NCBI RefSeq assembly: GCF_037040815.1
Contig: NZ_CP146232.1
Location: 1,792,501-1,856,500, forward strand
Length of the DNA: 64,000 bases
Source: Pararoseomonas sp. SCSIO 73927
Lineage (GTDB): Bacteria > Pseudomonadota > Alphaproteobacteria > Acetobacterales > Acetobacteraceae
Reading direction: 5' to 3'
Shown here: positions 138-55,235 of the stretch, in pieces
Numbering within the stretch: the first letter of the stretch is position 1
Layout of the letters: each line of letters begins with the position of its first letter
Notes under the pieces: model-generated
Seen by the model: the letters and a program-made list of their open reading frames with translations, nothing else
What the model was told of the DNA's origin: nothing
Database searches by the model: none
Program-made: the position numbers and the translations under genes

Positions 138-190
138 CCAGGGGGAAGAAGGAATTCTTCTCCCTGGACCCCATCCTCTTTTTCTGCGGG
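138..190 (+). repeat. Hairpin repeat element, copy 1 (partial), downstream of secB
   Basis: Arms 138-150 and 155-167 form a 13-bp stem with one G-T wobble, closed by a GGAA loop centred on GAATTC. A T-rich tract (CTCTTTTTC) and the shared tail CTGCGGGGCTGCCGCGG follow. It has the same architecture as the copies at 5126, 51779 and 54989. Its position just after a stop codon and before a T-run suggests a transcription terminator, which is inference. Confidence 0.75.
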
Positions 191-320
191 GCTGCCGCGG
201 AATGCGGCGATCGCGGTCGTGGCGGCCTAGCGGCGCGCTTCCCGGTCTGAGGGCGGACCTCGCCCGCTGGTGAGGGGCGGGCGCCTATCGCCACCCCGGG
301 GCCGGGCCTACATCCGGCCG

Positions 321-2189
321 ATGCCCTTCCGCGCCTTCGAATCCTTCCTCGACCCCGTCGCGCCGCCCGGGGCGAAGGCGGCGCGGATTGGCGGGGTGCC
401 GGTGCCGGAGGGGCCGCCGCCCGCCACCCTTCTCGGCTTCTACTGGCACTTTGCCCGGCAGGCGCGGGTGCTGGTGGCCGCCCTTTTCGCTGCCGGCTTC
501 CTCGTGGCGGTGCTGGACAGCCTTATCCCCGTCTTCATCGGCCAACTGATCGCGCTGCTCGGCGCCCATGCGCCGGACCGGCTGATCCCGGAGACCGGGT
601 GGGCCCTCGTGGGCATGGCGGTGGTGATGCTGGTGCTGCGCCCGGCCTCCATCCTCCTGCAGAACCTCGTCGCCAACCAGGCGATCAACCCCGCCTTCAC
701 CAGCCTCATCCGCTGGCAGTCCCACCGCCTCGTCTCCCGCCAGGGCTGGCCCTTCTTCCAGGAGGACTTCGCCGGGCGCATCGCCAACCGGGTGATGCAG
801 GCCGGGCCGGCGCTGCGGGAATCCGTCACGCAATCCGTCACGGCGGTCTGGTACATCCTCGTCTACGGCTCCTCCGCCGTGATCTGGCTGGCGGGGGCGG
901 ATTGGCGCCTGGCGCTGCCCATCCTCCTCTGGTTCCTCCTCTACGCCGCCTTCCTGCGCGCCGTGGTGCCCCGGCTGCGGGACCGGTCTCGCGCCGCGTC
1001 CGAGCAGCGGAGCCTGCTGACGGGCCGGATCGTGGACGCCTACACCAACATCCTCTCCATCAAGCTCTTCGCGCGGGCGGCGCGGGAGGACGCCTTCGTG
1101 GCGGAGGGGGTGACGGGCCTGACCGCGGCCTTCCAGGCGCAGATGCGGCAGATCACCTTCAACTCCGCGGTCCTCTCCGCCCTCAACGCCCTTCTGCTGG
1201 TCGGCATGGCGGCGCTGTCCATCCGGCTCTGGATGGCGGGGGAGATCGGGGCGGCCACGGTGGCCACGGCCCTGCCCATGGCTTGGCAGATGGCCAACAT
1301 CTCGGGCTGGGTGGCCTTCAACGTCGGCGCGATCTTCGAGAGCATCGGGGTGGTGCAGGAATCCATCCGCAGTATCGCCGCCCCGCCCACCGAGCCGGAC
1401 CCGCCCGGCGCCGGGCCGCTCGCCGTGACGCGCGGCGCCATCCGCTTCGAGGGGGTGCGCTTCGGCTACGGCCGCGCCGATCGCGCCGTGCTAGACGGCT
1501 TCGACCTGGAGATCCGCCCTGGCGAGCGGGTGGGGCTGGTGGGCCGGTCCGGCGCCGGCAAGACCACGGCGGTGAACCTGCTGCTGCGCTTCTTCCACCC
1601 GGAATCCGGCCGCATCACGATCGACGGCCAGGATATCGCCGGGGTAACGGCCGAAAGCCTGCGCGGCGCCATCGGCATGGTCACCCAGGACACGGCGCTG
1701 CTGCACCGCTCCATCGGGGACAACATCCGCTTCGGCCGCCCCGAGGCCACCGACGCGGAGGTGATCGCCGCCGCCCGGCGCGCCGAGGCGGACGGCTTCA
1801 TCCGCGGCCTGTCGGACTGGCGGGACCGGAAGGGCTACGAGGCCCATGCCGGGGAGCGGGGGGTGAAGCTCTCCGGCGGGCAGCGCCAGCGTGTGGCCAT
1901 CGCCCGCGTGCTGCTGAAGGACGCCCCGATCCTCGTGCTGGACGAGGCGACGAGCGCCCTCGATTCGGAGGTGGAGGCGGCGATCCAGGAAGGGCTGACC
2001 AGCCTGATGGAGGGCAAGACGGTGATCGCAATCGCCCACCGCCTCTCCACCCTGGCGCAGCTGGACCGGCTGGTGGTGCTGGAGGAGGGGCGGATCGTGG
2101 AGAGCGGCCCGCACGAGGCGCTGCTGGCCCGGGGCGGCCCCTATGCCCGCCTCTGGGCGCGGCAGTCCGGCGGGTTTATCGGGGCGTAG
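321..2189 (+). CDS. ABC exporter, fused permease and ATPase (MsbA/lipid-exporter-like)
   Basis: A 622-aa half-transporter with an N-terminal six-helix type-1 exporter domain (about residues 35-340) followed by a nucleotide-binding domain. Walker A GRSGAGKT is at 408-415, the ABC signature LSGGQ at 517-521, Walker B ILVLDEA with D541/E542, and the H-loop histidine at 573. It would work as a homodimer in the inner membrane, exporting a lipid, peptide or drug; the substrate cannot be read from sequence. I place the start at ATG 321 (MPFRAFESF), because the 17 codons before it in the same frame look non-coding. It is transcribed in the same direction as secB and the ATP synthase genes but has its own flanking gaps. 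Confidence 0.93.
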   Translation: MPFRAFESFLDPVAPPGAKAARIGGVPVPEGPPPATLLGFYWHFARQARVLVAALFAAGFLVAVLDSLIPVFIGQLIALLGAHAPDRLIPETGWALVGMAVVMLVLRPASILLQNLVANQAINPAFTSLIRWQSHRLVSRQGWPFFQEDFAGRIANRVMQAGPALRESVTQSVTAVWYILVYGSSAVIWLAGADWRLALPILLWFLLYAAFLRAVVPRLRDRSRAASEQRSLLTGRIVDAYTNILSIKLFARAAREDAFVAEGVTGLTAAFQAQMRQITFNSAVLSALNALLLVGMAALSIRLWMAGEIGAATVATALPMAWQMANISGWVAFNVGAIFESIGVVQESIRSIAAPPTEPDPPGAGPLAVTRGAIRFEGVRFGYGRADRAVLDGFDLEIRPGERVGLVGRSGAGKTTAVNLLLRFFHPESGRITIDGQDIAGVTAESLRGAIGMVTQDTALLHRSIGDNIRFGRPEATDAEVIAAARRAEADGFIRGLSDWRDRKGYEAHAGERGVKLSGGQRQRVAIARVLLKDAPILVLDEATSALDSEVEAAIQEGLTSLMEGKTVIAIAHRLSTLAQLDRLVVLEEGRIVESGPHEALLARGGPYARLWARQSGGFIGA

Positions 2190-2255
2190 GGCCGGAGGCG
2201 CTGCAACAGCGCACGGGAAGCGGCTGTTAAGGCTCTGTTGCGGGGCCGCGCCGGC

Positions 2256-2283
2256 TTGACTTCACATGGACGCCAATTTAGGG
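2256..2283 (+). promoter_or_regulatory. Possible promoter for the F0 ATP synthase operon
   Basis: TTGACT at 2256-2261 resembles a sigma-70 -35 box. About 16 bases later the sequence is TTAGGG (2278-2283) within an AT-rich patch unusual for this genome. The -10 match is weak. It lies about 40 bases before the atpI start, where a promoter is expected. Confidence 0.3.
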
Positions 2284-2322
2284 ACCCCCTGCCTTCCGGG
2301 GGACAACCGCTGGAGGAGCAGA

Positions 2323-2619
2323 GTGGAAAACCGGGACGGCTTCGACGACCGGCTGCGGCAGGCCAGGACCCGCCAGGGCCTGGATCCAAAGCCCCGAACA
2401 GGGGGGGAGGGCGGCCTGCCGACGGGCCCGTGGGGAATTGGCTTCCGCGCGGGGGTCGAGGTGGTATCGGCGCTGGTCGTGGGCGCGGCGCTGGGCTTCG
2501 GCCTCGACCGCTGGCTCGGGACCTTTCCCTGGCTCTTCCTCGTCTTCTTCTTCGTGGGCGGCGCCGCAGGGGTGCTGAACATCTACCGGCTGTTCAAGCC
2601 CCATCCCGGCGCCCGCTAG
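2323..2619 (+). CDS. atpI: ATP synthase accessory protein AtpI
   Basis: A 98-aa membrane protein with a charged N-terminus (VENRDGFDDRLRQAR) and two hydrophobic helices around residues 40-60 and 68-88, ending in a short basic tail. This is the AtpI/Fo-assembly pattern of alphaproteobacteria. AtpI helps assemble the c-ring and may act in Mg2+ uptake. I chose GTG 2323 because GGAGGAG lies five bases upstream; the in-frame ATG at 2266 would add 19 residues that do not look like AtpI. First gene of the atpI-B-E-F'-F order, which in alphaproteobacteria is separate from the F1 genes. Confidence 0.85.
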   Translation: MENRDGFDDRLRQARTRQGLDPKPRTGGEGGLPTGPWGIGFRAGVEVVSALVVGAALGFGLDRWLGTFPWLFLVFFFVGGAAGVLNIYRLFKPHPGAR

Positions 2620-2662
2620 CGCCCGCCAGTGGTCGTCAGACCGTGAGATCAAGGACCGAGAC

Positions 2663-3418
2663 GTGGCCGCCGAAGGCAAGACGATCGACGCGCTGAGCCA
2701 GTTCGAGCTGATCCCGGTCCTCGGCCCGGTCGGCCGGGCCGTTGGCTTCTCCCAGTCCAACGCCCACATGCTGCTGGCGGTGGGGCTGATCTCGATCCTG
2801 ATGCTGGTCGGCATCCGCCGCCGCGCGCTGGTGCCCGGCCGGTTCCAGGCGGCCGCCGAGATGTTCTACGAGTTCATCGAGAACCTCGTGACCGGGCAGG
2901 TGGGCCATGAGGGGCGGAAGTACTTCCCCTTCGTCTTCGCCCTCTTCATGTTCGTGCTGTTCGGGAACCTCATCGGCCTGTTCCCCTACGCCTTCACCTA
3001 CACCAGCCACATCGCCGTCACGCTCGGCCTCGCCGCCACCGTGTTCTTCGTGACCACGATCGTGGCCCTGGCGCTGCACGGCAGGAAGTTCTTCGGCTAC
3101 TTCTTCCCGGAGGGAGCGCCGCTCTGGCTCGCGCCCATCATCGTGCCGGTGGAGCTGGTCTCCTACCTCTCCCGGCCGGTCAGCCTTTCGGTCCGCCTGT
3201 TTGCCAACATGGTGGCGGGCCACGTGCTGCTGAAGGTGTTCGCCACCTTCGTCGTCCTCCTCGGTGGGCTGGGAGCGATCGGGCCGGTGGCCGCGCTCCT
3301 CCCGCTCTCCGTCAACGTGCTGCTCGTCGGGTTCGAGATCCTGGTGGCCTTCCTCCAGGCCTATGTCTTCGCGATCCTGACCTGCATCTACCTGCACGAC
3401 GCGGTGCACCTGCACTAG
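2663..3418 (+). CDS. atpB: F0F1 ATP synthase subunit a
   Basis: A 251-aa polytopic membrane protein that forms the proton half-channels beside the c-ring. The essential arginine of the family is R178 in [12 protein letters not shown], and the downstream helix [19 protein letters not shown] is also conserved. Length fits alphaproteobacterial subunit a. The start is GTG 2663 with AAGGA about eight bases upstream. It follows atpI by 43 bases and precedes atpE by 49 bases, in one operon. Confidence 0.97.
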
Positions 3419-3467
3419 AACCGCGCCGGCAACCTTCTCCAACCGCTCAACAAGGAAGAGCTCTCCG

Positions 3468-3707
3468 ATGAACGATCCTGCCGCCTACCTCGGCGCCTTC
3501 AAGGCGCTCGGCGCCGGCATCGCCGTCTTCGCGCTGTTCGGCGTGGGTCTCGCGCTCGGCAATATCTTCTCCACGCTGATCTCCTCGGTCGCGCGGAACC
3601 CGTCGGCCCGCGACACCGTCTTCCCGATCGGCATTCTCGGCTTCGCCCTCACGGAAGCCGTCGCGCTCTTCGCGCTGCTGATCGCCTTCCTGATCCTCTT
3701 CGCCTGA
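3468..3707 (+). CDS. atpE: F0F1 ATP synthase subunit c
   Basis: A 79-aa hairpin of two membrane helices joined by the polar loop ARNPSA (residues 42-47). The second helix carries the proton-binding glutamate E63 ([10 protein letters not shown]). Subunits of this kind form the rotating c-ring. Glycine spacing in helix 1 ([17 protein letters not shown]) fits tight helix packing. Ribosome site AAGGAAG precedes ATG 3468. The gene shows no sodium-binding signature that I can recognise, so a proton-driven enzyme is expected. Confidence 0.97.
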
Positions 3708-3766
3708 TCGGGTCCGCGGCGCGGCCGGGAGGTCCTCCCGGCCGTCCGCCGCGGGACGGAGACCGC

Positions 3767-4555
3767 ATGATCCGCCTCTCGCACCGTAATGCCTGGCGCA
3801 GCCTGGCCCTCGCTGCCCTTCTCTCCGGGGCATCGGTCCTGGCCGCGCCGGGCGCGCTCGCCCAGCAGGTCACGGCACCGCACGCGACCGGCCCGGTGCA
3901 GCCCTCCGGCCCACTTCCGGGCCAGCAGGGCGAGAGCCGCGCCGTGCAGGCGGACAGCGACCGCGCCAACGCGGTGCGCGAGGCGAACATCACCGCCAAC
4001 GAGTACCGCGCCGCCGCCCATGACGCGGCGGACGCCGGCGGCATGCCGCAGCTGGACTTCGGCAACCCCCTGATGATCTCCCAGGTGGTGTGGCTCCTCG
4101 TCATCTTCGGGCTGCTCGTCTTCCTCTGCTATCAGTTCCTGCTGCCGCCCGTGGCGGCGGTGCTGGAGGACCGGCGCCAGCGCATCGCGGCCGACCTGGA
4201 CGCGGCGCGCGACGCCCGCGCCGAGGCCGAGGCCGCCGAGGCCGGCCGGCGCGACAGCACGGCCCGCGCCCGCGCGGAGGCCCAGGCCTCCATCGCGGCC
4301 GCGCTCCAGGCCGCCCAGGCCGAATCCGCCGCCCGCGCCGAGGCGCTGGCCGAGCGGCTGAACCGCCAGATCACCGAGGCCGAGGCCCGCATCGGCACCG
4401 CCCGCGACGCCGCCATGGGCGCGCTGCGCGAGGTGGCCACCGACGCGACCACGGCCCTCGTCCAGCGCCTCTCCGGCCTGACGGATGGGGCGGCCGTCTC
4501 CGCCGCGGTGGACCGCGAGCTCGCCGCCCGCAACCCGCGCACGGGAGCCGCCTGA
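3767..4555 (+). CDS. atpF': F0F1 ATP synthase subunit b' with long N-terminal extension
   Basis: A 262-aa protein whose C-terminal two thirds is a typical b/b' stator: one membrane helix at about 104-125, then a long alanine/arginine/glutamate coiled coil that reaches up to F1. Ahead of it are about 100 extra residues: a signal-peptide-like segment (residues 10-33, ending APGALAQQ) and a Pro/Gln/Ala-rich linker. Ordinary b' subunits are near 160-200 aa. The extension probably places the N-terminus in the periplasm, possibly after cleavage. The stop codon overlaps the atpF start (TGATG), implying coupled translation in equal amounts with b. Confidence 0.9.
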   Translation: MIRLSHRNAWRSLALAALLSGASVLAAPGALAQQVTAPHATGPVQPSGPLPGQQGESRAVQADSDRANAVREANITANEYRAAAHDAADAGGMPQLDFGNPLMISQVVWLLVIFGLLVFLCYQFLLPPVAAVLEDRRQRIAADLDAARDARAEAEAAEAGRRDSTARARAEAQASIAAALQAAQAESAARAEALAERLNRQITEAEARIGTARDAAMGALREVATDATTALVQRLSGLTDGAAVSAAVDRELAARNPRTGAA

Positions 4556-5061
4556 TGCACCAGTACGAGCACTTCTGGCTGGACCCGAAGTTCTGGGTCG
4601 CCGTCTCCTTCATCCTCTTCGTCGTGCTGCTGGGCGGCATGATCTGGAAGCGCCTCGGCGCCCTGCTCGACGCCCGCGGTGCCCAGGTGCGCGCCCAGCT
4701 CGCCGAGGCGACGAAGCTGCGCGAGGAGGCCGAGGCCATGCGGAAGAGGGCCGAGGCCGACCGCGCCGCCGCCCTGCGCGAGGCCGAGGAGACCGTCACC
4801 CGCGCCCGTGCCGAGGCCGACCGCGTGGCCACCGCCGCCGCCGCCGAGGCCGAGGCGAACGCCGCCCGGCGCGAGCGCATGGCGATGGACCGCATCGCCG
4901 CGGCCGAGGCCAGCGCCCTGGCCGAGGTCCGCACCGCCGCGGCCGAGATTGCCGCCGCCGCCGCCCGCTCCGTCATCGCGGAGAAGCTGACGGCCGAGGG
5001 CGACGCCGCGATGATCGACAAGGCCGTGGCCGACCTGCCGCGGGCCCTGCGCGCGGCCTGA
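4555..5061 (+). CDS. atpF: F0F1 ATP synthase subunit b
   Basis: A 168-aa stator subunit. A single membrane helix (about residues 11-31, FWVAVSFILFVVLLGGMIW) is followed by a charged coiled coil to the end. It pairs with b' as the peripheral stalk that holds F1 against rotation. ATG 4555 shares its first base with the b' stop. Last gene of the F0 operon; a perfect 16-bp hairpin repeat (5126-5161) follows 64 bases later and may end the transcript. Confidence 0.95.
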   Translation: MHQYEHFWLDPKFWVAVSFILFVVLLGGMIWKRLGALLDARGAQVRAQLAEATKLREEAEAMRKRAEADRAAALREAEETVTRARAEADRVATAAAAEAEANAARRERMAMDRIAAAEASALAEVRTAAAEIAAAAARSVIAEKLTAEGDAAMIDKAVADLPRALRAA

Positions 5062-5125
5062 TCCCGGGCTGGTATCTGATGCTTCACGGGGGCCGCGAGG
5101 CCCCCGTTTGCGTTTCGGGGCGGCC

Positions 5126-5240
5126 CCAGGGGGAGGGAGAAGGAATTCTCCCTCCCCCTGGACCCCCACCCTCATCTTTTTCTGAGGGGCTGCCGCGGGA
5201 TGCCCGGCTTGCGGTTCGCCGAGGGTCCATGACCCTCGGC
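5126..5240 (+). repeat. Hairpin repeat element, copy 2, downstream of atpF
   Basis: Hairpin 1: arms 5126-5141 and 5146-5161 are perfectly complementary over 16 bp with a GGAA loop. A T-run (ATCTTTTTC) and CTGCCGCGG follow. Hairpin 2: arms 5218-5227 and 5231-5240 are perfectly complementary over 10 bp with loop CAT. Both hairpins recur at 51779 and 54989 with different but still paired stems. Likely a terminator or an RNA processing element. Confidence 0.85.
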
Positions 5241-5245
5241 GCGTG

Positions 5246-5345
5246 ACAGGTCCCCCTGGAACCAGCTCGAAGAAGAAGATGATGGGGGTCGAGGGGGGGA
5301 AATTCCTTCTTCCCCCTCGCGGGGGTTCCGGGGGCGGAGCCCCCG
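5246..5345 (-). repeat. Hairpin repeat element, copy 3, inverted and degenerate
   Basis: Read on the minus strand this is the same family: GGGGGAAGAAGGAATT followed by ACCCCCATCATCTTC, with the first stem now imperfect. On the plus strand arms 5329-5335 and 5339-5345 form a 7-bp G/C hairpin with loop GGA, equivalent to hairpin 4 of the long copies. Together copies 2 and 3 fill most of the 357-base gap between atpF and the next gene. Confidence 0.65.
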
Positions 5346-5418
5346 ACGACTCGGCCGTTCCCATTTCCGCGCCGCCCGCCTAGCCTCCGTGTCGAATCCA
5401 AGACGGGGAGAGAATGGG

Positions 5419-7002
5419 ATGCGGCGACTTCTGCTGGCCGGGGCCGCGGCGCTGGCGCTCGGGATGGGCCTGGGCTTCGGGGCCGAGGCGTCGACCTTCC
5501 GCTGGGCGAATGACGGCGACGTCAATTCTATGGATCCCTACGCGCGGAACGAGACCTTCCTTCTCACCTTCACGCACAACATCTACGAGCCGCTGGTGCG
5601 GCGGAACCGGGAGCTGAAGGTGGAGCCGGCGCTGGCGACCTCCTGGTCCCAGCCTTCCCCGACGGTATGGCGGCTGAACCTGCGCCAGGGGGTGAAGTTC
5701 CACGACGGCTCGCCCTTCACGGCGGACGACGTGGTCTTCTCTGCCCAGCGCGTGCGCGCGGGCGGGTCCAATCTCACCTCCGTGCTGTCCTCCGTGAAGG
5801 AGGTCCGCAAGATCGACGACCATACCGTCGAGTTCGAGACCCACGCCCCGGACCCGATCTTCCTTGAGGAGATCACGACCTGGGCGATCATGTCCAAGCG
5901 GTGGGCGGAGGCGAACAACGCCACCCAGGCGGTGGACCTGACCACGGGGCAGGAGAACTTCGCCACCCGCAACGCCAACGGCACCGGTCCCTTCGTGCTG
6001 GCGAGCCGCGAGCCGGACCGCCGCACGGTGCTGCGCCCGAACCCGAACTGGTGGGACAGGCCCGAGCACAACCTGACCGAGGTGCAGTTCAACGTCATCG
6101 GCAACGACGCCACCCGGGTCGCCGCCCTGCTCTCGGGCGAGGTGGACATGATCTACACCGTGCCCCCGCAGGACACGGAGCGGTTGAGCCGCGAGCGGGC
6201 CGTGCGGGTCCACCAGCAGGCGGAGCTCCGCACCGTCTTCCTCGGGTTCGACCAGAGCCGCGAGGAGCTGCTGAAGAGCGACGTGCGCGGCCGGAATCCG
6301 TTCCGCGACCTGCGCGTGCGCCAGGCCTTCCAGCTCGCCATCGACCTGGAGGCGATCAAGACGCGCATCATGCGCAACCAGTCCCGCCCCACCAGCCTGA
6401 TGATCGGCCCGGGCGTCAACGGCTTCACGGAGGCCGCAGACCGCGTGGTGCGGCCGGACGTGAACCGCGCGAGGCAGCTGCTGACGGAGGCCGGCTACCC
6501 CAACGGCTTCGGCGTGACGCTGGACTGCCCGAACGACCGCTACGTGAACGACGAGGCGATCTGCACGGCGGTGGTCTCCATGCTGGCGCGGATCGGCGTG
6601 CGCGTGAACCTCGCGGCCCAGACCCGCGCCCGCTACTTCGCCGAGATCCTGGCGCCCCGCTACAACACCAGCTTCTACATGCTGGGCTGGACGCCGACGA
6701 CCTACGACGCCCACAACACGCTCTACAACATCATGGCCAGCCGGGGCGGGCAGCGCGGCGTGTTCAACTCCGGCGGCTGGAGCAACCCCCGCTTCGACGA
6801 GCTGACGAACGGGATCGCGGTGGAGACCGACCTCGCGAAGCGGCAGCAGATGATCGACGAGGCGATGAGGATCCACACCGAGCAGGTCGGCCACATCCCC
6901 CTGCACCAGCAGGTCGTGGTCTGGGCGGCGCGGACCAACATCACGCTGCAGCAGATGGCGGACAACTACTTCCCGCTGCGCTACGTGCGGGTGGGGCAGT
7001 AG
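5419..7002 (+). CDS. ABC transporter substrate-binding protein, family 5 (peptide/nickel type)
   Basis: A 527-aa secreted protein. The signal peptide is MRRLLLAGAAALALGMG, with cleavage near residue 25 (GAEAS). The SBP_bac_5 fold is shown by WRLNLRQGVKFHDGSPFTADDVVFS, NGTGPF and the C-terminal HIPLHQQVVVWA. Members deliver oligopeptides, glutathione, nickel or other solutes to an ABC permease in the inner membrane; the ligand here is unknown. Start ATG 5419 has GGGGAGAG upstream; the in-frame GTG at 5389 would put ten polar residues before the signal peptide. No permease or ATPase genes adjoin it, so its transporter is elsewhere. Confidence 0.92.
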   Translation: MRRLLLAGAAALALGMGLGFGAEASTFRWANDGDVNSMDPYARNETFLLTFTHNIYEPLVRRNRELKVEPALATSWSQPSPTVWRLNLRQGVKFHDGSPFTADDVVFSAQRVRAGGSNLTSVLSSVKEVRKIDDHTVEFETHAPDPIFLEEITTWAIMSKRWAEANNATQAVDLTTGQENFATRNANGTGPFVLASREPDRRTVLRPNPNWWDRPEHNLTEVQFNVIGNDATRVAALLSGEVDMIYTVPPQDTERLSRERAVRVHQQAELRTVFLGFDQSREELLKSDVRGRNPFRDLRVRQAFQLAIDLEAIKTRIMRNQSRPTSLMIGPGVNGFTEAADRVVRPDVNRARQLLTEAGYPNGFGVTLDCPNDRYVNDEAICTAVVSMLARIGVRVNLAAQTRARYFAEILAPRYNTSFYMLGWTPTTYDAHNTLYNIMASRGGQRGVFNSGGWSNPRFDELTNGIAVETDLAKRQQMIDEAMRIHTEQVGHIPLHQQVVVWAARTNITLQQMADNYFPLRYVRVGQ

Positions 7003-7009
7003 CCGGGCC

Positions 7010-7035
7010 CGGCGCCGGGGGTTCCCCCGGCGCCG
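7010..7035 (+). terminator. Strong G/C hairpin between the binding-protein gene and metX
   Basis: Arms 7010-7021 and 7024-7035 are perfectly complementary over 12 bp with a TT loop, eight bases after the stop codon. No T-run follows, so it is either a rho-assisted terminator or an RNA-stabilising hairpin. Confidence 0.5.
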
Positions 7036-7086
7036 ATCCGGGGCGCCGCCTTGCCGTTCCGCGGCGGCACTCCTAATCCTCCCGGT

Positions 7087-8241
7087 ATGAGCGAGGCTCC
7101 AGCTACCCTGCCGGCCGTGGACCACCAGCGGGTCGTCTTCCCCGAGGGGCTGGCGCTCGACAGCGGGGTCATGCTCGCGCCCATGGCGGTGGCCTACCGC
7201 ACCTACGGGGCGCTGAACGCGGCCCGCAGCAACGCGATCCTCGTCTGCCACGCCCTGACCGGGGACCAGTACCTGGCCGAGACCCAGCCGGTCACGGGCA
7301 AGCCGGGCTGGTGGTCCTCCATCGTCGGGCCGGGCAAGCCGATCGACACGGACCGCTACTTCGTCATCTGCGCCAACGTCCTCGGCGGCTGCATGGGCAG
7401 CACCGGCCCGCGGGAGGAGATGACGGATGCCAATGGCCGCGGCCTCGGCCGCCCCTGGGGCATCGACTTCCCGGCCATCACCATCGCGGACATGGTCCGC
7501 GCCCAGAAGAAGCTGGTGGAGTACCTGGGCATCGAGCGGCTGCTCGCGGTCATCGGCGGGTCCATGGGGGGGATGCAGGCGCTGCAGTGGGCGGCCCTCT
7601 ATCCCCGCAGCGTCTTCGCCTGCGCGCCCATCGCCACGGCGGCCCACCACTCCGCCCAGAACATCGCCTTCCACGAGGTCGGCCGCGCCGCCGTCCACGC
7701 GGACCCGGATTTCTGCCAAGGCGCCTACTGGAAAGAGGGGCGCATCCCCGCCCAGGGCCTCTCCGTCGCGCGGATGGTCGCCCACATCACCTACCTGTCG
7801 GAGAGCGCGCTGACCCGGAAGTTCGGCCGCCGCCTGCAGGGCGCCAAGGCGCTGACCTTCCTGGAGGATGTCTTCGCGGTGGAGAGCTACCTGCGCCACC
7901 AGGGTAGCACCTTCATCCGGCGCTTCGACGCCAACTCCTACCTCACCATCACCCGCGCCATGGATTACTTCGACCTGGCGGCCGACCACGGGGGCGACCT
8001 GTCCAGCGCCTTCCGGGGCACGCCGACGCGCTTCCTCGTCGCCTCCTTCTCCTCGGACTGGCTCTTCCCCACCGCGGAGAGCCGTGCCGTGACCCGCGCG
8101 CTGAACCGCGCCGCCGCCCGCGTCTCCTTCATCGAGCTGGAATCCGACAAGGGCCACGACGCCTTCCTGCTGGACGAGCCGGAGTTCCACGCCGCGCTCG
8201 GCGGCTTCCTCTCCGGCTCGGCCGACGCGGTGGGGGTCTGA
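7087..8241 (+). CDS. metX: Homoserine O-acetyltransferase MetX
   Basis: A 384-aa alpha/beta-hydrolase-fold acyltransferase that acylates L-homoserine, the first committed step of methionine synthesis by direct sulfhydrylation or transsulfuration. The nucleophile is S159 in [13 protein letters not shown], with D324 (FSSDWLFP) and H357 (DKGHDAF) completing the triad. The segment TGPREEM and overall length fit MetX. Some family members use succinyl-CoA, which sequence alone does not settle. ATG 7087 begins MSEAPATL; the longer frame from 7051 has no good start. Followed by metW, the usual partner in alpha- and gammaproteobacteria. Confidence 0.95.
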
Positions 8242-8317
8242 GGATGGACCGACGGAGGGCGCAGCCCGGCGGCGTGAATCCATTCTCGGCGAGCGCCAGC
8301 GAGCCAAGGAGGTTCCC

Positions 8318-8965: not shown

Positions 8966-9277
8966 GTGCGCTACCCCGTGACCCCGGACGGGCGCTACTT
9001 CGTCGTCCGCGGCCGCCTGTGGCGCATGTCGGACCCCACCCTGCCCGCGGAGCGCCGCGCGGAGCTCACGAAGCGGCTGATGGCCGCCCGCCGCGCCGTG
9101 GGCACCGCCCTGCGCGCCGGCGACGAGGCCGCCCTGCGATCGGCCCGGGCGGGGGTGGACGAGGCCAAGGTGGCCCTGGGCGAGCGCGGGCCCGTCTGGT
9201 GGACCGACGGCACGCCCGACCTGAACCGGCGCATGGCAGCGAAGACGGCTTATGCGGAGTGGTTCGCGGGGCTCTGA
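8966..9277 (+). CDS. Small conserved-looking protein coupled to metW
   Basis: A 103-aa soluble protein beginning at GTG 8966, directly after the metW stop. The start MRYPVTPDGRYFVVRGRLWRM suggests a short beta hairpin. A helical charged middle follows (LPAERRAELTKRLMAARRAV), and then VALGERGPVWWTDGTPDLNRR near the end. Codon use is like its neighbours and the frame is clean, so it is very likely real. I recall similar short proteins in other Proteobacteria but cannot name a family or a function. Confidence 0.75.
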   Translation: MRYPVTPDGRYFVVRGRLWRMSDPTLPAERRAELTKRLMAARRAVGTALRAGDEAALRSARAGVDEAKVALGERGPVWWTDGTPDLNRRMAAKTAYAEWFAGL

Positions 9278-46928: not shown

Positions 46929-46945
46929 TCTTCCTCTCCCTTCCG

Positions 46946-47725: not shown

Positions 47726-47828
47726 GAGGGCATCCTAGACGCCCTTTTCACCCAACGGAAGATGATTGCATGTGATGGAAGTGCTGATCTAAAGCTGCGC
47801 GGACAAAGGCCAAGTGGAGGAGACTGCT

Positions 47829-48842
47829 GTGCGACGGCATGGAGCAAACCCGGCAGGCGGCATCGCCCTGTCACGGCGGGGACTGGGACTCGCTCTGGCC
47901 AACCTCGCCGCGGTTGGCATGGGGACTCGCTCCGCCGGAGCGCAGCAGCCGTACCCGAGCCGGCCGATCCGCGTCGTCGTGCCCTTCGTGGCCGGCGGCG
48001 GGACCGACGTCGTGGGGCGCGAGCTGGCGCAGCGCATGAGTGAGGAGCTCGGCCAGCCGCTCGTGGTGGACAACCGCGGCGGCGGGGGCACGGTCATCGG
48101 CTCCGACGCCGTCGCCAAGGCGCCACCGGACGGCTACACCCTGCTCCTCACCACCTCGGCGCTGGCGATCAACGCCTCTCTCGTGCGCGATCTCCCGTAC
48201 AACACCGAGAGGGCCATCACCGAGGTCGGGCTGATCTGCCGCGGGCCCAACGTGATCGTGGTGAAGCCCGACAGCCCGTTGCGGACCGTGGCCGACATCG
48301 TGCGCGCCGCGAAGGCAAGTCCGGGCGGCCTGACCTACGGTTCCTCAGGCAACGGCTCGGCCGTGCACCTGGCGGCGGAGCTGTTCAAGCTGACGGCCGG
48401 GGTGGACATCACCCACGTGCCCTACCGCGGCGCCGGGCCGGCCTATACCGACCTGCTGGGCGGGCGGCTGGACATGGTTTTCGCGACGGCGGGCGGGGTG
48501 GCCAGCCTCGTCAAGCAGGGGCAGCTGCGGGCCGTCGCCGTCACCTCGGCCGGACGCACCCCCGCCTATGACGGCGTGCCGGCGGTGGCCGAGACCCTGC
48601 CGGGCTACGAGGCGGATGTCTGGTACGCCGTCTTCGCGCCCGCGGGCACGCCGGCGCCGGTGGTGGCGCGGCTGAACGCGGCGATGCGCAAAGCGACCGA
48701 GGTGCCCGCCTACCGCGACCGGCTGGCGGGCGAGGGGCTGACCGTGGCGGTGAACAGCCCGGAGGAGATGACACGCTTCATGCGCGCCGAGGAGGCGCGC
48801 TGGCGGCGGGTGGTGACAGACGGGAAGCTGACGCCGGATTGA
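47829..48842 (+). CDS. Bug-family periplasmic binding protein
   Basis: A 337-aa binding protein with a Tat-like signal (LSRRGLGLALANLAAVG, mature start near GAQQPY). Motifs: IRVVVPFVAGGGTDVVGR, VDNRGGGGTVIG, HVPYRGAGPAYTDLLGG, YDGVPAVAETLPGYE and VFAPAGTP. Start GTG 47829 is preferred because GGAGGAG ends seven bases upstream; GTG 47814 overlaps that ribosome site. Followed by an SDR gene. Confidence 0.93.
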   Translation: MRRHGANPAGGIALSRRGLGLALANLAAVGMGTRSAGAQQPYPSRPIRVVVPFVAGGGTDVVGRELAQRMSEELGQPLVVDNRGGGGTVIGSDAVAKAPPDGYTLLLTTSALAINASLVRDLPYNTERAITEVGLICRGPNVIVVKPDSPLRTVADIVRAAKASPGGLTYGSSGNGSAVHLAAELFKLTAGVDITHVPYRGAGPAYTDLLGGRLDMVFATAGGVASLVKQGQLRAVAVTSAGRTPAYDGVPAVAETLPGYEADVWYAVFAPAGTPAPVVARLNAAMRKATEVPAYRDRLAGEGLTVAVNSPEEMTRFMRAEEARWRRVVTDGKLTPD

Positions 48843-48862
48843 GGCGCGGTCCGAGGGGGAGA

Positions 48863-49666
48863 ATGAGCATGGCCGGAAGGCTCGAAAGCAAGGTCGCGAT
48901 CGTCGTCGGCGCAGGGCAGCAGCCCGGCGAGACGATCGGCAACGGGCGCGCGGTGGCGGAGCGCTTCGCGGAAGAGGGCGCGACGCTGCTGCTGGTGGAC
49001 ATTAACGAGGAATGGGCGGAGGCCACGCGCGCGGCGGTGGAGCGTCACGGCCGCCCTGCCTCCATTCTGCGGGCCGACATCACCCAGGAGGAGGACTGCG
49101 CCGCAATCGCCCGGACCTGCGTGGAGCGCTACGGCCGCATCGACGTGCTGCACAACAATGTCGGCCGTTCCAAGGGCGACCGGAAGACGGCCGAGATGGA
49201 TGCCGGCATGTGGGACGCCATCATGGCCATGAACCTCAAGGGCATGTTCATGACCTGCAAGCACGTCCTGCCGCAGATGGTCGCGCAGAAGTCGGGCTGC
49301 ATCGTCAACATCTCCTCCACCTCCTCCCTCTCCGCGCGGCCGACGGTGACCTACAAGACCAGCAAGGCCGGGGTGAACGCGCTGACCCAGCACATCGCGA
49401 CGGAGAATGCCCGCCACGGCATCCGCGCCAACGTGATCCTGCCCGGGTTGATCGACACGCCCATGGCGATCGAGCGCCGCGCGCAGGAGCGGGGCGTATC
49501 GCGCGAGGTCGTCCGGGCCGAGCGTGAGGCGCTGGTGCCGATGGGCCGCATGGGCACGGCCTGGGACGTGGCCAACGCCGCGGTGTTCCTGGCCTCCGAC
49601 GAGGCTGGTTACATCACCGGCGTGATCCTGCCCGTTGATGGCGGATTGCTCGAGAAGCGAGGCTGA
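48863..49666 (+). CDS. Short-chain dehydrogenase/reductase
   Basis: A 267-aa SDR, paralogous to the one at 45059. Coenzyme motif GAGQQPGETIGNGRA with the same kind of insertion, D46 (LVDIN) for NAD, serine in NISSTSS, then Y164 and K168 (TYKTSKAG). The C-terminus GYITGVILPVDGGLL is usual. ATG 48863 follows AGGGGGAG. It forms a two-gene operon with the Bug gene, so the pair mirrors the Bug/SDR pair at 44055-45859. Confidence 0.9.
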   Translation: MSMAGRLESKVAIVVGAGQQPGETIGNGRAVAERFAEEGATLLLVDINEEWAEATRAAVERHGRPASILRADITQEEDCAAIARTCVERYGRIDVLHNNVGRSKGDRKTAEMDAGMWDAIMAMNLKGMFMTCKHVLPQMVAQKSGCIVNISSTSSLSARPTVTYKTSKAGVNALTQHIATENARHGIRANVILPGLIDTPMAIERRAQERGVSREVVRAEREALVPMGRMGTAWDVANAAVFLASDEAGYITGVILPVDGGLLEKRG

Positions 49667-49707
49667 ACAGGGGCGGTGGGACGACGAGTGCGCTCCCGCC
49701 GCCCCAC

Positions 49708-49923
49708 TCAGTGGGCATCGGCATGATCGGTCAGACGCAGCCTGCCTCTGAGAGCCGTGGAGAGGTTGTTCAGCGTCTCGTCGCGGATCCCCACCTTTTT
49801 CGGAATGCCTTCCCTAGCTCCCTTCCCCCGCAGGTTATCCTCAACGGATTGGATGGTGGACGTGGTGATTTGCCCTTCGGCCTCTATCGCCGCGATCATG
49901 CGGCTCAGGAGGGCGACCTCCAT
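49708..49923 (-). CDS. Small hypothetical protein, doubtful
   Basis: A 71-aa frame beginning MEVALLSRMIAAIEAEGQIT and ending in a polar tail. The first 45 residues look like two amphipathic helices and read more like protein than the surrounding shadows. Lower GC and more varied codons than the neighbours suggest a foreign or decayed origin. No ribosome site is convincing. I do not recognise a family. Confidence 0.3.
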   Translation of the reverse strand: MEVALLSRMIAAIEAEGQITTSTIQSVEDNLRGKGAREGIPKKVGIRDETLNNLSTALRGRLRLTDHADAH

Positions 49924-50045
49924 CCGCCCGCCTGCCGCAGGCGCCCGGGGGGGCACCTACGTAAGCGTGTGAAGAAGCGCTGAATCGAGACCCTGCCCAA
50001 AGCCGATCTGTGCATTTGGTCGGAAGCACGAAAACGACGTGAGGG

Positions 50046-50077
50046 TGAGGTGCCGATCGGCGCTGATCGGGACCTCA
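50046..50077. terminator. Hairpin in the SDR/LutB convergent gap
   Basis: TGAGGT-G-CCGATC (50046-50058) pairs with GATCGG-G-ACCTCA (50065-50077): 12 bp with one internal G/G mismatch and a six-base loop. No T-run. It could end either convergent transcript. Confidence 0.35.
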
Positions 50078-50264
50078 CCTGGTGATCAACCTTCGTGACG
50101 GGATCAGTGATCTACAGTGGGTTGTCCCTTCCAGCGGCCACAGTGGCCGGCAGGCGTTGATGGCCGCCGGCCCGCCATGAGAGGGCCGCTCCCCAGGATG
50201 GTGGCCGTGCACTGGAGGAGTGAACGGGTCCTTCTTCCCTCCCCTGGGCCGGCAAGGGCCGAAA

Positions 50265-51695
50265 TCAGGGACGGCGGCGCTGGGTGGCGGCGTAGCGGGC
50301 CATGAAGGTGCCGCCGCGCTCCGGGGCGGGCAGGTCGCGGCTGGCAGTCCAGGCGCCGGCCAGCGGCAGGCGGCGGAAGCGGCCGGTGCCGCGACCCAGC
50401 AGGGCGAGCGTGCCCATGGCGAGGCGGGTGGCCGCGCGGTACAGGGCGGGGCGCCGGGCGAACCAGGCCCAGACCCCGAGGCCGCGCCTGGCGGTGGAGG
50501 GGGTGAGGTGGCGCTCGAACTCCCTCTCCCGCCAGTTCCGCAGCATCTTCGGCAGGGGGATTTTCACGGGGCAGACGCTCTCGCACCGGCCGCAGAGGGA
50601 GGAGGCGTTGGGAAGGTTCGCCGACTTCTCGAGGCCGACGAGGGCGGGGGTGAGGACGCTGCCCATGGGGCCGGGATAGACCCAGCCATAGGCGTGACCG
50701 CCGGCGGCGTTGTAGACCGGGCAATGATTGATACAGGCGGCGCAGCGGATGCAGCGGAGCATCTCGTGGAAGTCCGTGCCGAGCATGTTGGACCGGCCGT
50801 TGTCGATCAGCACCACATGGTACGCCTCCGGCCCGTCGAGATCGGGCGCGCGCCGGGGACCAGTGGAGAAGGTGGTGTAAACCGAGAGGTCCTGGCCCGT
50901 GGCGGAGCGGGCGAGGAGGCGCAGCAGGGTGCTGCAATCCTCCAGCGTCGGCACCACCTTCTCGATGCTGGCGAGGGCGATGTGCACGCGCGGCAGGGTC
51001 TGCGTCAGGTCGCCATTGCCCTCGTTCGTGACGATGACGCTGGTGCCGGTCTCCGCGATCAGGAAGTTGGCGCCGGTGATGCCGACATCCGCCTGCACGA
51101 AGCGCTCGCGCAGGGTCTGCCGGGCCTCGGCCATGATGTCGCGCCGGTCGTGGAACACGCGATCCGCCGGCAGGTCCTTGTGGGCGGCCCGGAAGCGGGA
51201 CTCCCAGTCCTCCCGGTTCAGGTGGAAGGCGGGGGCGATGATGTGGCTGGGCGGCTCGTTCACCAGCTGCAGGATGTACTCGCCAAGATCGGTCTCGACG
51301 GGGGTGATCCCGTTCGCTTCCAGATGCTCGTTCAGCCCGATCTCCTCCGAGATCATGGACTTGCCCTTGGTCACGGTGCGCGCATCCGCATCCCGGCAGA
51401 TTCCCAGCACCGTCGCGCGCGCCTCCGCGGCGTCTCGGCACCAGTGAACCTTGCCGCCATTGGCCACGACCTTCGCCTCGAAGGCCTCCAGGTAGTGGTC
51501 CAAGTTGGCGAGGGTATGATTCTTGATGTCGCGCCCGATGTCGCGCAGCGCCTCGAACTCCGGCAGCGCGGCCGTGGCCTGGGCGCGCTTGGAATGGAAG
51601 CCGCTGCCGCCGCGGCGCAGCGCCTTCTGCAGGTTCGCATCCGCTAGGGCACGGGCGGCGCGGCGCTTGAAGTCGGGGGAGGTGAGCGCGACCAT
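50265..51695 (-). CDS. lutB: LutB-type iron-sulfur protein (LUD domain)
   Basis: A 476-aa protein. The LUD domain (about 60-300) contains TVTKGKSMISEEIG and GANFLIAETGTSVIVTNEGN. A two-cluster ferredoxin region follows with C315/C318/C321/C325 (CIRCAACINHCP) and C368/C371/C375 (CGRCESVCP). LutB works with LutA and LutC to oxidise L-lactate to pyruvate, passing electrons to the respiratory chain. Neither LutA nor LutC is next to it, so it is an orphan here. The start at 51695 lacks a strong ribosome site but fits the family length. Confidence 0.9.
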   Translation of the reverse strand: MVALTSPDFKRRAARALADANLQKALRRGGSGFHSKRAQATAALPEFEALRDIGRDIKNHTLANLDHYLEAFEAKVVANGGKVHWCRDAAEARATVLGICRDADARTVTKGKSMISEEIGLNEHLEANGITPVETDLGEYILQLVNEPPSHIIAPAFHLNREDWESRFRAAHKDLPADRVFHDRRDIMAEARQTLRERFVQADVGITGANFLIAETGTSVIVTNEGNGDLTQTLPRVHIALASIEKVVPTLEDCSTLLRLLARSATGQDLSVYTTFSTGPRRAPDLDGPEAYHVVLIDNGRSNMLGTDFHEMLRCIRCAACINHCPVYNAAGGHAYGWVYPGPMGSVLTPALVGLEKSANLPNASSLCGRCESVCPVKIPLPKMLRNWREREFERHLTPSTARRGLGVWAWFARRPALYRAATRLAMGTLALLGRGTGRFRRLPLAGAWTASRDLPAPERGGTFMARYAATQRRRP

Positions 51696-51778
51696 GTCAG
51701 CACCATAGGGCAGAATGGGGCCGGGCAGGAACGGGTGAAGCATTCCCGGGGTGTTTCTGGGGCTGCGGTCCGTGGCCA

Positions 51779-52021
51779 GGGAGAGGAAGAAGGAATTCTT
51801 CCTCTCCCCGGACCCCTCACCATCATCTTCTTTTAGGAGTCGGTCTCTCTCGGCTGATGGTGCGCCTCGGGTCGATGACCCGAGGCGACTGCAAGGGCAG
51901 GAGGAGGCCGTCAGGCCGAGACACCGTCCCAGGACGGCGTGGCGGCAGCCGGGTGGGGGTCCAGGGGCCTCAGGCCCTTGGCGGGGGTTCCAGGGGGCGG
52001 CGCCCCCTGGTCCCGGACCTG
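51779..52021 (+). repeat. Hairpin repeat element, copy 4 (long form, about 243 bp)
   Basis: Four hairpins in order. H1: arms 51779-51791 and 51796-51808, 13 bp, loop GGAA. H2: 51863-51887, 11-bp arms, loop GAT. H3: 51961-51981, about 9 bp with one wobble. H4: arms 51990-51998 and 52002-52010, 9 bp, loop GGC. It aligns along its whole length with the copy at 54989. It ends right at the tyrA stop codon. Confidence 0.85.
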
Positions 52022-52912
52022 TCAGGCCTGCTTCAACTCGATCAGCGAGCGGCGGATTTTCCGGCCCCGGCGGATGCGGTCCTCGATGAAGCCGGCCTCG
52101 CCCCAGCGGATGGCGCGGCCGAAGGCCTGGGCGTCCTCTGTCAGGCGGGCCAGCATCTCCAGCACGGCCTCGCGGTTGTTGAGGAAGATGTCGCGCCACA
52201 TGTCCACGTCGCTGGCCGCGATGCGGGTGAAGTCGCGGAAGCCGGAGGCGGCGAAGCGCAGCACGGCCTCCCGCGTCTCCTGCGCCAGGTCGTCGGCGGT
52301 GCCGCAGATGGTGAAGGCGATGAGGTGCGGCAGGTGGGAGACGACGGCCACCACCTTGTCGTGCGTCGCCGCGTCCATCGTCTCGATCATGGAGCCGGCG
52401 CGCTCCCACAGGGCGCGCAGCTTCGCCACCGCCTCGGGATCGGTGCCAGGGGGCGGGGTGAGGATGCACCAGCGGCCCTGGAACAGTTCCGCGAAGCCCG
52501 CGTCCGGGCCGGAATGCTCCGTGCCGGCCATGGGGTGGGCGGGGACGAGGTGGACGCCTTCGGGCAGCAGCGGCAGCAGGTCCCGCAGCACGCTTCCCTT
52601 GGTGGAACCCACGTCGGAGAGGATGCAGCCCGGCGCGAGGTGCGGGGCGATGTGCGCCATCACCCCGGCATAGGCGCCGACGGGCACGCAGAGGATCACG
52701 CCGTCGCAGCCCTGCACGGCCTTCGCCGCGTCGGGCTCCACGATGTCCGCGATGCCGAGCGCCTGCACGCGCTCCAGCGTGTGCTCGCTGCGGGCGGTAG
52801 CCACCAGCTCCCCCGCGATGTCGTCCCGCGCCCGCGCCACGCGCAGGATGGAGGAGCCGACGAGGCCGGGGCCGATGACGCAGAGGCGCCGGAAGAGCGG
52901 GGCCTCAGCCAT
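52022..52912 (-). CDS. tyrA: Prephenate/arogenate dehydrogenase
   Basis: A 296-aa NAD(P)-dependent dehydrogenase of tyrosine synthesis. The Rossmann motif GPGLVGSS starts at residue 14, and [25 protein letters not shown] and [13 protein letters not shown] are the family's active-site segments (histidines in PAHPMAG and VVSHLPH). No chorismate mutase domain is fused; that is a separate gene in this operon. The start lies eight bases inside the hisC-type gene, so the two are coupled. Last gene of the operon. Confidence 0.95.
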
Positions 52913-53987
52913 GCCGGAAGTCGGCCAGGGCGTCGAGCACCATCCCGCACTCCTCGGCGGTGCCGATGGTGATGCGGAGGCAGGAGGGCAGGCCGTAGAC
53001 GGTGACGCCGCGCACGATCAGCCCGCGGGAGCGCAGGTGGGCGTCGGCCGCCTTGCCCGCTTCCGGGCTGCCGAAATCCACCAGCAGGAAGTTGGCGTGG
53101 CTGGGGTGGACCTTCAGGCCGAGCTTCGTCAGCCCTTCCGTCATCTTCGCCACCCACTCCCTGTTGTGGGCCACGTTCTTCTCGACCCAGCCCGGCTCGG
53201 ACAGCGCGGCGATCCCGGCGGCCTGGGCGGTAGAGGAGACGTTGAAGGGGGAGCGGACGCGGTTCAGCACGTCGATCACCGCCGGCGGGCCGTAAAGCCA
53301 GCCCAGCCGCATGCCGCCGAGGCCCCAGACCTTGGAGAAGGTGCGCGTCATCACCGTGTTGGTGCCGGCATCCACCAGCTTCGCGCCGGCGTTGTAATCG
53401 GGATCGGTGACGTACTCGGCGTAGGCGCTGTCGAGGACGAGGAGGATGTCCTCGCGCAGCCCGGCGCGCAGCCGGTCCACCTCCGCCTGCGGCAGCAGGG
53501 CGCCGGTGGGGTTGTTCGGGTTCGCGAGGATCACCAGGCGGGTGCGCGGGCCGCAGGCGGCGATGATGCCGTCGATGTCGGCCTGCAGGTCCTTCTCCGG
53601 CACCTTCAGCACGTTGCAGCCGGCCCAGCGCCCGGTCAGCTCGTACATGAGGAAGCCGTGGGCGGACATGACGATCTCCGTCCCCTCGCCGCCGTAGGCG
53701 AGGATGAGGAGGGCGAGCAACTCATCCGAGCCGTTGCCGACGACGATGCGGTTCGGATCGAGGCCATGATGCTTGCCGATCGCCTCGCGGATCGCGGTGG
53801 CGCCGCCATCCGGGTAGCGGTTCGCCTCCTTCGCGGCCTCGGCGATCGCGGCCACGGCGGCCGGCGGCGGTCCGAAGGGGCCCTCGTTGGAGGAGAGCTT
53901 CACGATCCGGTTCACGCCCGGGACCTTCGACTCGCCGCCGACATAGGGCTCGACCGAGAGGATGGAGGGGCGGGGCATCACGGGCAT
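52905..53987 (-). CDS. hisC: Histidinol-phosphate/aromatic aminotransferase
   Basis: A 360-aa fold type I PLP enzyme. The PLP-binding lysine is K219 in [36 protein letters not shown] and LRITIGT are HisC hallmarks. Placed between chorismate mutase and tyrA, it probably transaminates prephenate, phenylpyruvate or hydroxyphenylpyruvate as well as, or instead of, histidinol phosphate. The 54-base gap upstream carries three tandem 16-base repeats. Confidence 0.94.
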
Positions 53988-54001
53988 GGCAGTCGGCCTT
54001 C

Positions 54002-54049
54002 GGAAGCGTTCGGGGCGGGAAGCGTTCGGGGCGAGAAGCGTTCAGGGCG
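54002..54049. repeat. Three tandem 16-bp repeats between hisC and chorismate mutase genes
   Basis: GGAAGCGTTCGGGGCG at 54002-54017 and again at 54018-54033, then AGAAGCGTTCAGGGCG at 54034-54049 with two changes. The third unit covers the chorismate mutase stop codon; the others fill the leader of the hisC-type gene. Looks like slippage-type expansion; copy number may vary between strains. Confidence 0.8.
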
Positions 54050-54890
54050 TCTCGGTTGCGGGCTCGTCCAGCGACGGCTCGGCGAAGCCGCCGATCGGGT
54101 GCGGGCGCAGCGCGGAGAGGGCGGCCAGCCGCGGATCGCCGGGCTGGATCAGCCCCTCCACCTCCGCCAGGCCGCGCATGCCGTCGGCCGAGAGGATGAG
54201 CCGCTGCGGCGGCAGGCCGGCGGCGCCGAGCGCGGAGACAAGGGCCCCGCGCGAGGTGTTCGGCGCGCGCTCCAGCCGGATCAGGCCGCGATCCCTCGGC
54301 GTGGCGTCGGCCGCGAAGGCGGCGACGACGAGGGCGCTCGGCAGGGTCTGGCCGGGGCGGAGCAGGAAGGGCAGGGCGGCCACCACCTGCAGCCGCGGCG
54401 CCTCCACGCTCGCCCACCAGGCATCCGCCAGCGGTTCGCCATCGGCCGGGGAAGGAAGGATGGCCACCGTCGCCTCGCCCGCCGAGAGGGCGGCGAGCAC
54501 ACGGGACGGGGTGGCGTGAATCCGCAGCGGCGTGTCCAGCCCGAAATGGCCGAGCGCCAACGGCTCCGTCCCGCCGAGCGCCGCAACCGAGAAGGCGGAT
54601 TGCTGCCGCAGCGAGGTGGCGATCACCTCCCGCCACAGCCGGGCCACGGCGGCGCGCGGCATCGGCCCGCGGTGGCGGCCGAGCAGGCGGCGCAGGATCA
54701 TCGCCTCCCGCCCCGGCCGGAAGCTGGCGCCGCTCGCCTTCATGCCGTTGGCCGCCAGCGAGGCGGAGAGGCCGGCGCGGCGCATGAGCAGGTCGTGCAG
54801 CTGGTCGTCGATCGCGTCGAACTCGGCCCGGGCGGCGGCCAGGGCCTCCGGCTGCACGGCGGCGGGATCGGTCAGGGCTGAGTCGGGCAT
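54042..54890 (-). CDS. Chorismate mutase with C-terminal prephenate-dehydratase-like region
   Basis: A 282-aa protein. Residues about 14-100 form an AroQ-type mutase: the arginine of AARAEFDAIDDQL, K in NGMKASG, and E in RPGREAMILRRLL match the substrate-binding set of the E. coli P-protein mutase domain. The rest (about 105-275) looks like a degraded ligand-binding domain (LRIHATPSRVLAALSAGEA, APNTSRGALVSALGAAGLPP) related to the dehydratase/regulatory part of PheA but without clear catalytic threonine motifs. First gene of the aromatic operon; converts chorismate to prephenate. Confidence 0.85.
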   Translation of the reverse strand: MPDSALTDPAAVQPEALAAARAEFDAIDDQLHDLLMRRAGLSASLAANGMKASGASFRPGREAMILRRLLGRHRGPMPRAAVARLWREVIATSLRQQSAFSVAALGGTEPLALGHFGLDTPLRIHATPSRVLAALSAGEATVAILPSPADGEPLADAWWASVEAPRLQVVAALPFLLRPGQTLPSALVVAAFAADATPRDRGLIRLERAPNTSRGALVSALGAAGLPPQRLILSADGMRGLAEVEGLIQPGDPRLAALSALRPHPIGGFAEPSLDEPATETP

Positions 54891-54988
54891 GGGGCAGGGT
54901 GGGTCTAGCGCCCTTGTCCCCCTGCGCCAAGGCGCTTGGCCTCGGTGCCACCAAGCCCTTCGCGCTGATCCTGTGCGGCCGGTCTGTC

Positions 54989-55233
54989 CCGGGGAGAGGA
55001 AGAAGGAATTCTTCCTCTCCCCGGACCCCTCTCCATCATCTTCTTCTAGGCTTTGGGAATACCCTGCTGACGGTGCGCCTCGGGTCCATGACCCGAGGCG
55101 ACTGCAAGGGCAGGAAGAGGCCCGTCACGCGGAAACCCCATCTCAGGACGGCGCGGCGGCAGCCAGCTGGGGGTCCAGGGGCCTCAGGCCCTTGGCGGGG
55201 GTTCCAGGGGGCGGCGCCCCCTGGCTCCGGACC
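54989..55233 (+). repeat. Hairpin repeat element, copy 5 (long form, about 245 bp)
   Basis: H1: arms 54989-55004 and 55009-55024, perfect 16 bp, loop GGAA. H2: 55076-55100, perfect 11-bp arms, loop CAT. H3 and H4 (CCAGGGGGC with GCCCCCTGG) follow as in copy 4. Most of the sequence after H2 is the same in copies 4 and 5, while the region between H1 and H2 and part of the middle differ. It ends at the stop codon of the prolyl oligopeptidase gene. Confidence 0.85.
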
Positions 55234-55235
55234 TG

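Follow-up and report, generated by a model that had tools for sequence, protein, structure and literature searches.

Compound extragenic palindromic repeats of Roseomonas-type Acetobacteraceae, a lineage-specific family probably spread and homogenised as DNA

The window analysed here, a stretch of 64,000 nucleotides from the 5.59 Mb genome of Pararoseomonas sp. SCSIO 73927 (C1:1792501-1856500), holds a compound palindromic repeat in five copies. All five were recovered with a covariance model at E <= 0.01, the remaining matches being opposite-strand shadows only. The repeat is about 245 bp long and contains several hairpins. In the long copy at 54989-55233 these follow in the order hairpin 1 (HP1; 16-bp stem, GGAA loop), a 23-nt G-poor linker, hairpin 2 (HP2; stem of 11 bp, loop of 3 nt), a variable part, and hairpins 3 and 4 (HP3, HP4) (Table 1). 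The conserved sequence of this copy extends to 55233, 2 nt from the stop codon at 55236 of a minus-strand gene, and HP3 and HP4 of the 51776 copy stop 11 nt short of the stop codon (52022, minus strand) of a prephenate dehydrogenase-like gene. The original prediction had placed five copies next to gene 3' ends, and all are present, with two corrections to their coordinates: HP1 of the copy that it began at 51779 begins at 51776, and its copy at 5246-5345 is a reverse-strand half (linker plus a facing hairpin, HP1') opposite the 5126 copy, with a separate short hairpin after it.

Table 1. Coordinates of the repeat components and of one neighbouring stem in the window
Feature	Coordinates	Strand	Basis
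Truncated copy: HP1 with GGAA loop, 13-bp stem carrying one mismatch	138..167	+	covariance model
Truncated copy: G-poor linker, then inner closing stem left arm (GGGGCTGCCGCGG, 188-200)	168..200	+	by-eye motif comparison
Ordinary stem with T-rich tail, 3' of ATP synthase b-like gene; precedes the repeat and lies outside it	5086..5107	+	
HP1, 16-bp stem, loop GGAA	5126..5161	+	
Linker and inner closing stem left arm	5162..5198	+	
HP2, stem CGCCGAGGGTC, loop CAT	5217..5241	+	
Linker and HP1', facing half-copy, core unlike the usual one	5270..5319	-	model match 5212-5321 on -
Short GC hairpin (HP4-like)	5329..5345	.	read by eye
HP1, one A.C mismatch	51776..51811	+	
G-poor linker, conserved	51812..51834	+	
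HP2, stem CGCCTCGGGTC	51863..51887	+	
HP3 and HP4	51961..52010	.	read from sequence
HP1, perfect 16-bp stem, loop GGAA	54989..55024	+	
G-poor linker, conserved	55025..55047	+	
HP2, stem CGCCTCGGGTC	55076..55100	+	
HP3 and HP4	55175..55224	.	

Symmetric copies elsewhere (L045, L047, L048 and others) have HP1 and linker at each end and HP2 in the middle. HP1 was seen at both ends in at least 8 of 175 intergenic gaps and on one side only in 167, as counted with a strict HP1 core that misses diverged HP1' (for example 5290-5319). Modelling predicts strong folding of the long window copy on both strands (z -5.1 and -4.0), and one symmetric copy is predicted to fold into a single long palindrome (z -12.1). 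An extra small hairpin (type GTCGAAGGCAGTGCCTTCGAC) stands between HP1 and the linker at L068, L131, L150, L160 (R. rosea), L047 and L210 (host), and is a modular growth of the repeat. The loop of HP1, originally described as a constant GGAA, is predominantly so: 127 of 142 linker-anchored hairpins have GGAA, the others AGAA (4), GGAG (3), GTAA (2), GAAA (2) and four single variants; upstream of 7 further linkers no hairpin was found.

The host genome contains 96 exact copies of the 13-mer HP1 core (GAAGGAATTCTTC) and 102 linker matches. The reversed controls gave 0 for both, ruling out an origin by chance or low complexity. Among 14 other genomes of the genus, exact cores number 36-169 in six and 0-4 in eight; the repeat is patchy within the genus. 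Looking for copies throughout this genome and in its relatives had been proposed in the original prediction, and they were found in both. Across the family, covariance model matches occur in at least 13 of 150 genomes at E <= 1e-4 under strict filters, the host and Roseomonas rosea DSM 14916 (G007) among them and the other eleven with weaker matches. Both the exact-core and the model searches give lower bounds: the exact-core counts leave out diverged forms, and the model search scored no more than 24 matches in any one genome. No known Rfam RNA family scored above its gathering threshold in the window, and two copies gave sub-threshold matches only. Among openly licensed PMC papers searched for such repeats in Roseomonas or Acetobacteraceae, none on this family was found. 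The family is apparently a large, undescribed palindromic repeat, a new family of a known kind, the extragenic palindromic repeats.

Copies are unevenly spread over the host chromosome. A segment at C1:0.69-2.56 Mb (34% of the chromosome contig, window included) holds 87 of the 96 exact HP1 cores, while 8 cores lie at 2.6-5.4 Mb and just one at 1.0-1.44 Mb; the replication origin is a possible centre of this cluster, with hemE (~C1:1,635,100) near the middle, dnaA (2,561,149) at the edge and a weak skew. In other Acetobacteraceae genera (G143, G140, G156, G072, G024) from 5 to at least 24 model matches were seen per genome. At four distant loci in other genera of the family (L217, L222, L224, L225) the repeat takes a reduced two-hairpin form, judged by eye to lie apparently between facing stop codons, with loops that include GGAA, GGTA and AGTA. 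A piece of a Roseomonas mucosa plasmid (NZ_CP025188.1:148499-148610) is 82% identical to part of the repeat.

We tested stem covariation on 67 diverse copies and 27 pairs against 500 shuffles and against slid structures. Four measures exceeded every shuffle: the share of cells that pair (96.1% versus a shuffled mean of 88.2), the pairs changing on both sides (14 of 27 versus 8.8), the cells with a change on both sides (127 versus 30.8) and the covariation score (0.229 versus 0.086), in a test where kinship among sequences alone can exceed shuffles. The fifth measure, further pair types (28 versus a mean of 24.2), was reached by 9 of the 500 and lay above the other 491. In slid structures at most 7 pairs and at most 32 cells changed on both sides. 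The stem covariation is real, and the original statement that both arms change together holds well beyond shuffled alignments as a description of the family. The 51776 hairpin pairs at 15 of 16 positions and keeps an A.C mismatch, so full compensation is not found in every copy.

The kind of change bears on what keeps the arms complementary. In HP1 nearly all changes keep a purine in the 5' arm and could have passed through G.U, the exception being one C-G cell at columns 7/34. HP2 occurs in 10 perfectly paired inner types, with 128 of 150 copies perfect and 22 imperfect. Compared with the commonest type, 17 of 20 HP2 pair changes are of transversion type, and a minimum spanning tree gives 11 of 13; for such double changes no G.U intermediate is possible. 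The inner stems of HP2 are also marked by species: TCCGGTC in 10 of 12 copies of P. baculiformis SSH11 (G002), TGAGGTC in 13 of 28 of R. rosea, TCGGCTC in 9 of 15 of R. populi CN29 (G006) and TCGGGTC in 46 of 75 in G000.

The original prediction took compensating changes to imply a selected fold, probably RNA, a step for which the data here give no support. Reading all HP1 copies HP1-first, the wobble-type mismatches were A.C 59, C.A 6 and G.T 11, with 37 of the A.C at one fixed position; HP2 had 20 G.T/T.G and 16 A.C/C.A. On the transcribed strand in tandem gaps we counted, without a positive control, 21 G.U against 22 A.C, or 14 against 16 with the fixed A.C removed. The tolerance of G.U above A.C expected for a selected RNA structure was not observed. 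Near-equal G.U and A.C, together with mostly transversion-type changes in HP2 as against the G.U-compatible changes in HP1, do not favour selection on one RNA strand. The mismatches and the HP2 stems would instead fit templating of one arm by the other at the DNA level, or exchange of whole units; this is an argument from sequence and not proof. On balance, a spreading DNA repeat accounts for the observations somewhat better than a selected RNA does.

To place the repeat relative to genes we used 119 sequences, sampled for holding copies or for two-gene anchoring, and predicted genes with a codon-usage script rather than a tested annotation program. A core-based search gave 183 HP1 in 175 gaps, of which the 163 flanked by genes on both sides were counted. 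These comprised 85 convergent, 72 tandem and 6 divergent gaps, compared with 134, 845 and 204 among background gaps of the same stretches (Fisher odds ratio 8.5, p 7e-31), a background that is local and not genome-wide. Placement is not random with respect to genes, and the siting at gene 3' ends claimed for the window copies extends to the family. Where HP1 faces a stop codon it lies a median of 21 nt behind it (n = 134), and on the HP1 side 19 of 40 stop contexts open with TGATCC, compared with 9 of 241 at a distance from copies. Only 1 of 183 HP1 falls within a predicted gene, which rules out genic insertion. In tandem gaps HP1 orientation is 41:29, with no clear bias, and this near neutrality speaks against an obligate one-strand role. 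Many copies, palindromic form, nearly exclusive intergenic location and depletion between divergent genes together give the family the features, in a broad sense, of repetitive extragenic palindromic (REP) units and bacterial interspersed mosaic elements (BIMEs).

Such siting raises the question of transcript ends. Rho-dependent ends combined with an exonuclease block could make use of a strong hairpin and a G-poor stretch after it. The linker behind HP1 is conserved and strikingly poor in G (5.5% G versus 32.7% in the control; no more than one G in 132 of 183 versus 3 of 350). Under this explanation HP1 would block 3'-5' exonucleases, the G-poor C/U-rich linker would be a stretch for Rho loading or release, and symmetric copies would serve both convergent genes. 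The excess of convergent gaps, the short distance to the faced stop codon and the composition of the linker agree with it, as do the reduced symmetric forms in other family members, which by eye retain the hairpin, a C-run and a T/C-rich tail and in some cases sit between facing stop codons. It sits poorly with the 41:29 orientation in tandem gaps, the lack of a G.U excess, the presence of HP1 on one side only in most gaps (by a strict core that misses diverged HP1'), the terminator-like stem that already stands between gene and repeat at 5126, and the 0-4 exact cores in eight of 14 congeners, where diverged forms are uncounted. A transcript-end role of the repeat is possible; that the family is a functional module of this kind we consider rather unlikely.

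Termination was among the functions first suggested, and its classical type uses a hairpin and U-tract. The GC-rich, strong hairpins behind stop codons are of the right general form, and PMC8355165 claims termination by hairpin clusters without a U-tract. A terminator scan found none in 51600-55400, which includes the two long window copies (shuffles mean 1.0), and in 4900-5500 found only the separate 5086 stem that precedes the 5126 repeat. No U-tract lies directly behind the HP1 stem of the window copies at 5126, 51776 and 54989; the first T-rich stretch, as read in window copies, begins about 12-16 nt past the stem. We regard classical intrinsic terminators as a very improbable identity for the repeat. 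A stem similar to the intrinsic-terminator-like one at 5086-5107 is present at the syntenic site of Pararoseomonas indoligenes SG15 (G014).

Orthologous sites were compared in 539 gene pairs, comparisons that share a species not being independent; a copy was present in both species in 15, in one only in 15 and in neither in 509. At L185|3 P. baculiformis has a copy (gap 351) that is absent from R. rosea (72), G008 (247) and G000 (108), and at L171|7 it has a copy where G005, R. rosea and G009 have none. At another site G001 and Roseomonas sp. KE2513 (G011) carry a copy (262/263), with none in G008 and G010 (7 and 12). At each of these three sites one lineage has the copy and two or three others lack it, a pattern that suggests gains, two in P. 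baculiformis and one in the G001/G011 lineage. These presence/absence differences and the patchy copy numbers support the mobile palindromic unit that the original prediction had listed as an option. In nine orthologous pairs that could be aligned in the same orientation, mean identity was 0.857. Identity to the best sampled paralogue averaged 0.916 for one side and 0.882 for the other, and that paralogue was closer than the orthologue in 7 of 9 and 5 of 9 pairs, respectively. At one further shared site the copies are in opposite orientation.

The explanation we prefer, with a probability of roughly 0.6, is that these compound extragenic palindromic repeats (REP/BIME/MITE-like; MITE, miniature inverted-repeat transposable element) form a lineage-specific family of Roseomonas-type Acetobacteraceae, spread and homogenised as DNA. 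Copies would spread, or be copied, as DNA into gaps behind stop codons, presumably because they do least harm there, and would be homogenised through exchange between copies. Complementarity of the arms would be kept up at the DNA level, mainly by one arm serving as template for the other or by exchange of entire hairpins. If the strong hairpin and the G-poor stretch behind it affect transcript ends at all, that effect would be secondary or local. The species-marked stems, the closer paralogues and the likely site gains fit a spreading, homogenised DNA repeat.

Several observations weigh against this explanation. Siting behind genes is equally expected of a functional 3'-end element, and the conserved G-poor linker is not explained by a DNA hairpin alone. 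The purine-preserving changes of HP1 suggest that its 5' arm is under a constraint of its own. A few of the 22 imperfect HP2 copies are possible one-step intermediates, so stepwise change is conceivable, and the mismatches are few in number and in part inherited in common. Homogenisation is contradicted by 2 of 9 orthologue pairs for the first side and by 4 of 9 for the second; the comparison itself leans toward the paralogue because the best paralogue is the best of many. At the site orthologous to the window 5126 copy G014 has a short hairpin, a possible remnant, which makes loss possible there. By eye no clear target-site duplication was found between filled and empty sites, whose flanks are too diverged to show one. 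No linked transposase was found either, with Y1_Tnp giving no match in 15 of 15 genus genomes and other transposase types not searched.

A narrower form of the proposal is that the stems of this dispersed hairpin repeat are rewritten in each species by arm templating, that is template switching, together with exchange between copies, giving covariation without RNA selection. Template switching in DNA replication is described in PMC8794818 as a route to multibase compensatory changes. We offer this form tentatively, as the less probable side of the question. If true, such a repeat would be a natural counter-example wherever covariation in repeats is taken to prove an RNA function. Those who build RNA families from such repeats should not treat covariation by itself as proving an RNA. 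The 10 perfect HP2 inner types among 150 copies are a data set for testing RNA selection against DNA template switching.

That the copies are REP units now mobilised by a REP-associated tyrosine transposase (RAYT, Y1) of the same genome is highly improbable. Siting and copy number resemble those of REPs as a section of PMC3733652 presents them, and GTGG precedes HP1 in many host-genome copies. REPs of this kind are palindromes of 20-40 bp with an unpaired GTAG or CGTC tag at one end. By eye, the flanks of 67 host HP1 copies fall into a subtype with GTGG and another with GTC(C) that lacks GTGG, and they show no constant tag. Moreover, Y1_Tnp (PF01797) matched 0 of 15 genus genomes, whereas 5 of 14 control genomes matched.

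Known systems resemble the present repeat in different respects. Bidirectional or Rho-dependent gene-end elements place a hairpin and a G-poor stretch behind stop codons, and the repeat shares both; it differs in being a nearly orientation-neutral, very highly repeated sequence. Bacterial MITEs such as RUP and NEMIS measure 70-300 bp and have terminal inverted repeats, according to a part of PMC3733652, and are comparable in size, in the HP1 at both ends of symmetric copies and in presence/absence differences at orthologous sites. The present repeat is, however, symmetric in at least 8, but few, of the 175 gaps (strict HP1 core), and neither a target duplication nor a parent insertion sequence was identified for it, only Y1 transposases having been searched. 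With REPs and BIMEs of the GTAG and CGTC superfamilies, as portrayed in sections of PMC3733652, it has in common a high copy number, palindromic form and intergenic location behind genes, between convergent or co-directional genes and often in opposite-orientation pairs. It is longer, with several hairpins in about 245 bp, and lacks both the constant GTAG/CGTC tag and a Y1 match in the genus. Di Nocera et al., in a passage of the same paper (PMC3733652), report CGTC repeats as missing from Acetobacteraceae, and the present family places a palindromic repeat within that bacterial family.

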